64,000 nt of DNA, from NCBI GenBank assembly GCA_951812395.1, contig CATOSD010000001.1, positions 1,833,108 to 1,897,107 of the forward strand, read 5' to 3'. Each line of letters opens with the position of its first letter. The stretch's first letter is position 1. This stretch comes from an uncultured Dehalococcoidia bacterium (GTDB lineage Bacteria; Chloroflexota; Dehalococcoidia; Lucifugimonadales; CATOSD01). The position numbers and the translations under genes are program-made. The notes beneath the pieces were generated by a model, which saw nothing but the letters and a program-made list of their open reading frames with translations, did no database searches and had not been told where the DNA came from. Shown in pieces: positions 31,190-31,968 of the stretch.

Positions 31190-31314
31190 CCGGGGAAGCT
31201 CACCCGGCGAAATGCGGTGAGTGAAGTCGAGCCTTGCGAGCGGCAAGTTCTGGCGTGAACTGCGCTCGCGAGTGGACAATTGTGGCAGCTCATGCACTGT
31301 CGAGGAGCGACTAC

Positions 31315-31968
31315 GTGAGCACATTGAAATGGCTGGGCCTTACCTCGTGTGTGACCATGGCCACCGTGCTGTTTGCCGCCTGCGGCAGCGACGAGCCCGG
31401 ACCTGACGCGGCTATGTCTCAGCCAGCTGCTGCGTCCGTGACCCAGCCGACCGCGGCCCCCGCCGGGGCTGCGTCGACTGAGAGCGCCCCGGTGCCTGCC
31501 GCGGCTACCGTGGCCCCTGCCACGCCGTCCGTTGAAGTCGGCCTAGACGTCGGCCAACGGGCTCCGGACTTTACGCTGACCAATCTGGAAGGTGAGAGGG
31601 TCACGCGGGCCGGCCTGGAGGGCCGGCCGGTGCTGCTCTACTTCTACACAACGTGGTGACCGTCTTGCCGTGCCTCGTTGAGGCAACTCAAGAATGTTCA
31701 CACCGATTTTGCGGACAACGTTGACATTGTGGGCGTGGGCGTCGACCCCGGCGAGGACGCTTCGGACATTCAGTCGTACATAGACAACCACGATTTCACT
31801 TGGGAAATGACCCTGGCAGACACTGACATGCTGGAGACGTACAAGGTCAGACAACAGGCGGGTTACATGGCGCTCGATGCCAACGGAGTGATAGTAACCG
31901 ACCTTACCTACGGGCCGAAGTCGGACGGCGGCTGGCGCGAGCTGTTTGAGGAGATGGCGAGGCCGTAG
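31315..31968 (+). CDS. Candidate selenoprotein: TlpA/thioredoxin-like lipoprotein with in-frame TGA (31657-31659) read as Sec in a UxxC motif
   Basis: GTG start after GAGGAG; lipobox VLFAAC-GS; one frame joins ORFs ...DFTLTNLEGERVTRAGLEGRPVLLYFYTTW-(TGA)-PSCRASLRQLKNVHTDFADNVDIVGVGVDPGED...; TGA replaces the first Cys of the WCxxC motif; SECIS-like hairpin follows. Confidence 0.72.
31664..31692 (+). promoter_or_regulatory. Putative bacterial SECIS element downstream of the TGA
   Basis: CTTG-ccg-TGCCTC-GTT-GAGGCA-act-CAAG: 6 bp upper stem, triloop beginning with G 18 nt after the TGA, 3x3 internal loop, 4 bp lower stem. Confidence 0.6.

Follow-up and report, generated by a model that had tools for sequence, protein, structure and literature searches.

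The stem-loop at 31671–31685 on the plus strand of the window, the whole 64,000-nt stretch of DNA analyzed here, is almost certainly a bacterial SECIS element located within a selenoprotein coding region and directing the SelB-dependent incorporation of selenocysteine (Sec) at the UGA of 31657–31659. The assignment rests on the position of the hairpin, its covariation among homologues, a control for synonymous coding, the behavior of Cys-encoding homologues, and the Sec machinery carried by the genome. The host gene encodes a redoxin (31315–31968, plus strand) and comprises 217 codons and a stop codon (31966–31968) when TGA is read as Sec. It starts with GTG, forms one frame with a single TGA, and is preceded, 7 nt 5' of the start, by the putative Shine-Dalgarno-like sequence GAGGAG (31302–31307, plus strand). 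The in-frame TGA (31657–31659, plus strand) is codon 115 and stands where a WCPSC motif has its first Cys, giving W-U-P-S-C. Given the conservation of the TGA among homologues and the presence of selA, selB, selD, and tRNA-Sec in the genome, Sec is very probably inserted at this codon. Standard annotation would truncate the redoxin at the UGA or split the gene in two.

The extended hairpin occupies 31664–31692 (plus strand) and reads exactly as the earlier note had described it, CTTG-ccg-TGCCTC-GTT-GAGGCA-act-CAAG. Its 5' parts are CTTG (31664–31667), ccg (31668–31670), and TGCCTC (31671–31676), followed by the loop GTT (31677–31679), and its 3' parts are GAGGCA (31680–31685), act (31686–31688), and CAAG (31689–31692). 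The spacing between the UGA and the triloop is 17 nt, which puts the loop G at base 18 past the TGA, in agreement with the 18-nt distance given previously. RNA folding of 31657–31700, which the earlier note had suggested as a check, returned the described structure at −15.3 kcal/mol, compared with a mean of −8.0 kcal/mol for 200 dinucleotide shuffles of the same segment (z = −3.41), only one of which was as stable. The core hairpin by itself, consisting of the 6-bp stem TGCCTC/GAGGCA and the loop GTT, folds at −8.2 kcal/mol.

These properties were compared with the published consensus model of bacterial SECIS elements (PMC13188914, Fig. 2; PMC1088965), in which the UGA and the loop are 16–37 nt apart, the loop has 3–9 nt and a G as its first or second nucleotide, in many cases with G or U next, and the upper stem has 4–16 bp with an energy of −7.5 kcal/mol or lower. 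Like these elements, the hairpin family to which the window copy belongs is a stem-loop in the coding region just past the UGA, with a 6-bp upper stem, a spacing of 17 nt from the UGA, an energy below −7.5 kcal/mol, and a loop of 3 or 5 nt carrying G and then U early. It differs from them in that 23 of 84 relatives have one bulged nucleotide in the 3' strand of the stem, and the window copy differs in an additional C-G pair closing its triloop. A search of the window against Rfam gave no match.

Following the established bacterial mechanism, a ribosome translating the redoxin mRNA would arrive at the UGA, where SelB with GTP and Sec-tRNA(Sec) would bind the stem-loop 17 nt downstream and deliver Sec in place of termination by release factor 2. 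Translation would then run on to the stop codon at 31966–31968. Judging from its signal sequence, the product would be exported and lipid-anchored, and its U-P-S-C site, set in a predicted ResA-like fold, may act outside the membrane in the exchange of thiols and disulfides or in the reduction of peroxides. In bacteria generally, SelB and release factor 2 compete at UGA codons, and this could underlie a variant in which the SECIS is true but termination at the UGA is so frequent that the balance between short and full-length product acts as a selenium-controlled switch. This variant is very unlikely, as there is no sign of a function for the short product, from which a large part of the thioredoxin fold would be missing. 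A SECIS serving the synthesis of the full-length selenoprotein is the preferred reading.

The window protein, with Cys substituted for Sec, was used to search 147 genomes from the same order for homologues, and many matches carried exactly one internal TGA. In all of the single-TGA loci fetched, the CxxC motif begins with the TGA, except in L132, a differently built paralogue. At this exact position, a TGA was found in 94 homologue loci, which belong to tens of family groups within one order and yield 84 distinct element sequences. All of these can be aligned over the 39 nt of the element with no gap and at the same distance from the TGA. The invariant columns are the TGA itself, T10-G11 of the Cys codon, and the loop G21 (84/84), and the loop in most relatives is a 5-nt AGTTG, AGTTA, or AGTTT. 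A stem of at least 5 bp is present in 80 of the 84 distinct sequences; it is simple in 57 and carries a 1-nt bulge in 23, while four sequences have neither form. The published bacterial SECIS criteria are likewise satisfied by 80 of the 84. In the bulged form, the stem resumes past a single base at column 28, as in L036, L030, L037, L090, and L099.

In the upper helix, 79.7% of cells are paired and all six pairs show double-sided compensatory changes; for the structure as a whole, the covariation score is 0.236, compared with 0.112 ± 0.008 in shuffles and 0.058–0.101 in slid registers. The earlier note had named conservation and compensatory change among TGA-containing homologues as a point on which its proposal could fail; the homologues keep the stem and the loop G, and the proposal holds. 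The lower helix, by contrast, pairs in only 47.6% of cells, and two of its four pairs (9-35 and 11-33) are broken in most sequences. The upper stem and loop of the original description are thus conserved, while the lower stem CTTG/CAAG with its symmetric internal loop, although formed in the window copy, was rejected as part of the signal as it is not conserved. The genuine SECIS is the upper stem and loop only. With such a deep set of homologues, the element becomes a strongly supported SECIS with measured covariation.

Since base pairs in a coding region can stem from the protein sequence, a control was run in which each homologue was re-encoded synonymously 100 times, and the window copy 5000 times, with the protein unchanged. 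The TGA homologues had a mean z of −2.30 relative to their own re-encodings, with 99% of them below −1, whereas the mean z of the Cys homologues was +0.08. For the window copy, 0.32% of the re-encodings attained the energy of its core hairpin. It could be imagined that the conserved C-R-A-E-L-R-R-L residues, encoded in a G+C-rich genome, give rise to the hairpin incidentally and that it has no function as RNA, and these residues do encode the stem, so that some pairing is expected from the protein. However, re-encoding abolishes the stem, the Cys homologues show no excess of stability, the Cys orthologues are stemless, and the paired columns co-vary, which makes a mere coding by-product extremely improbable.

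In the maximum-likelihood tree, the TGA-encoded proteins formed one group (support 100/99) apart from the ResA-like Cys paralogues. Six Cys orthologues were nested within this Sec group in three places, namely G041, G031, and four genomes of one family, and none of the six retained the hairpin stem. They are best read as the products of three putative Sec-to-Cys changes, a minimum-change count on a tree whose root and several inner forks are weakly placed. The genomes G031 and G041 are without selA at 97% and 91% completeness, respectively. The branch leading to the window copy is long, with 0.63 changes per column versus about 0.15 for its two nearest relatives. The homologue set offers three apparent Sec-to-Cys conversions accompanied by hairpin loss, and it brings out a subfamily of the thioredoxin fold in which the active-site loop is altered.

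A Cys codon (TGC or TGT) is one base away from TGA and Cys homologues exist, which would allow the TGA to be a recent nonsense mutation or a sequencing error in a Cys redoxin with an incidental hairpin nearby. It is hardly credible, however, that such an event should have produced a TGA at the same codon in 94 homologues of separate genomes together with a covarying hairpin, and the frame downstream is intact in the window as well as in those homologues that were read. The TGA is taken as a conserved Sec codon. The near-twins G077 and G089 differ at this codon: G077 has TGA, and G089 has TGG with the hairpin kept (L049, minus strand, position 963 of the reverse complement; L115); the TGG may be a recent loss or an error. 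The difference between these two genomes speaks for a reading of the UGA as tryptophan, or for general read-through, but the probability of this is negligible, as the TGG copy is a single one, the codon corresponds in the alignment to the catalytic Cys of the Cys-encoding homologues and not to a Trp, a Trp here would remove the nucleophile, and Sec machinery is present.

The genome of the window carries all of the components expected of a Sec-decoding genome. The selA (541 bits), selB (337 bits, with both halves in one 620-codon frame), and selD (396 bits, with one in-frame TGA) matches are over their cut-offs, and a tRNA-Sec with the anticodon TCA (UCA in the tRNA) was found. All three protein genes and the window are located on contig C1; the assembly has an estimated completeness of 95.8% and an estimated contamination of 6.4%, and the Sec genes are assigned to the window genome with that reservation. 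Together with the 84 distinct TGA homologues and the hairpin-less Cys orthologues, this machinery supports the SECIS reading put forward in the earlier note. Across the order, 130 of 147 genomes have selA, which shows that Sec decoding is a common trait there. The gene was detected in 64 of the 67 genomes with a TGA redoxin versus 66 of the 80 genomes lacking one (Fisher p = 0.018), a p value that is indicative only, being based on a hand tally over related species. The three genomes that have a TGA redoxin and no selA match (G040, G079, and G110) are all draft assemblies of 70–91% completeness. The TGA redoxin and selA are 8–15 kb apart in about a dozen relatives. A selenium island joining selA and the redoxin was considered and rejected, and the proximity was attributed to plain gene order, because two of the selA-linked regions (L157 and L159) contain housekeeping genes (ribosomal S2, EF-Ts, isoprenoid, riboflavin, and tRNA synthetase genes) and the two genes are far apart in the window genome.

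The window protein is predicted to be a lipoprotein-type, ResA/TlpA-like redoxin of the thioredoxin fold. Its signal is of the lipoprotein type (..TVLFAAC), with the lipobox LFAA|C and the Cys codon at 31381–31383. The protein matched the Pfam domains AhpC-TSA (1.2e-18) and Redoxin (9.6e-14), with PF00578 at 67.7 bits, over its gathering score of 26. An AlphaFold model of the window protein, with the TGA read through and 76 TGA homologues included, reached a pLDDT of 96.2 and a pTM of 0.90, and its best PDB matches in Foldseek were ResA-family thiol-disulfide oxidoreductases (4nmu and ResA structures) with TM scores of 0.81–0.86. None of the NCBIfam models matched the window protein at its cut-off. 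The protein resembles ResA and TlpA in its predicted fold and in a signal sequence that would place its CxxC-type active site outside the cytoplasm on a membrane anchor. It differs from them in the replacement of the first Cys by Sec, in the replacement of the cis-proline, in a sequence identity of about 20–25%, and in its score against the ResA model (PRK03147.1), which is 63.7 bits compared with a cut-off of 170.

Peroxiredoxin (Prx)-like selenoproteins with a UxxC motif have been described in genomes and in marine metagenomes (PMC1088965, PMC2398784, PMC1794560, PMC13188914). The window protein has PF00578 and a thioredoxin-like UxxC (U-P-S-C) in common with the Prx-like thiol:disulfide oxidoreductases among them, and it likewise has Cys homologues, with CxxC orthologues in six relatives. 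In contrast to these proteins, its subfamily has Q[SA] in place of the cis-proline and falls below every NCBIfam cut-off. By domain and motif, rather than by comparison with published sequences, the gene would belong to this known kind. Both the kind of SECIS and the UxxC Prx-like selenoproteins are thus already known, and the window gene adds a member. A literature search of partial coverage found no treatment of the window redoxin subfamily, which is weak evidence of absence.

In the alignment, the cis-proline site is Ser or Ala in 76 of 77 Sec proteins, and the preceding residue is Gln in 73 of 77. Q-S is also common to five of the six Cys orthologues, and the ResA-like paralogues have Pro. 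In the window protein, this site is Gln-Ala, encoded at 31855–31860. Whether the order possesses a clade-specific group of exported Sec lipoprotein redoxins, with Q[SA] for the cis-proline that is nearly universal elsewhere and some fused two-Sec forms with a SECIS for each Sec, is in our view an even call; if so, the chemistry of the subfamily would differ from that of the known ResA/TlpA proteins. Two redoxin domains in one frame, each with its own TGA and hairpin, were observed in G102, G079, and G010. The two-domain loci (L034:1357-2769, L038:1246-2838, and L033 on the minus strand) have a long linker rich in Pro, Thr, and Ala, and they encode putative two-Sec lipoproteins.

A genome-wide scan with a covariance model of the SECIS returned the window site as the sole strong match (41 bits, E = 2.5e-10), a score to be read with the window copy being among the sequences from which the model was built. 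The next matches, at 24.7 bits and below, were rejected, as those read sit outside selenoprotein-like frames. A second redoxin of the same genome (L132:300-869, plus strand; G000:C2:458953-459522) has a TGA within W-A-S-W-U-A-C, a UxC motif one residue shorter than UxxC, followed downstream by the hairpin GCTGCC-GGTCT-GGCAGC. It resembles the NCBIfam model NF041054 (ResA-like WAxxUGC) at 122 bits, below the cut-off of 300, and is therefore probably another selenoprotein. Selenophosphate synthetase is itself a selenoprotein in many bacteria. In the selD of this genome, the TGA falls within SCAG-U-ASKF (L020, minus strand, 2388-2386; within G000:C1:1530968-1531885), and the encoded selenophosphate synthetase is probably a selenoprotein as well.
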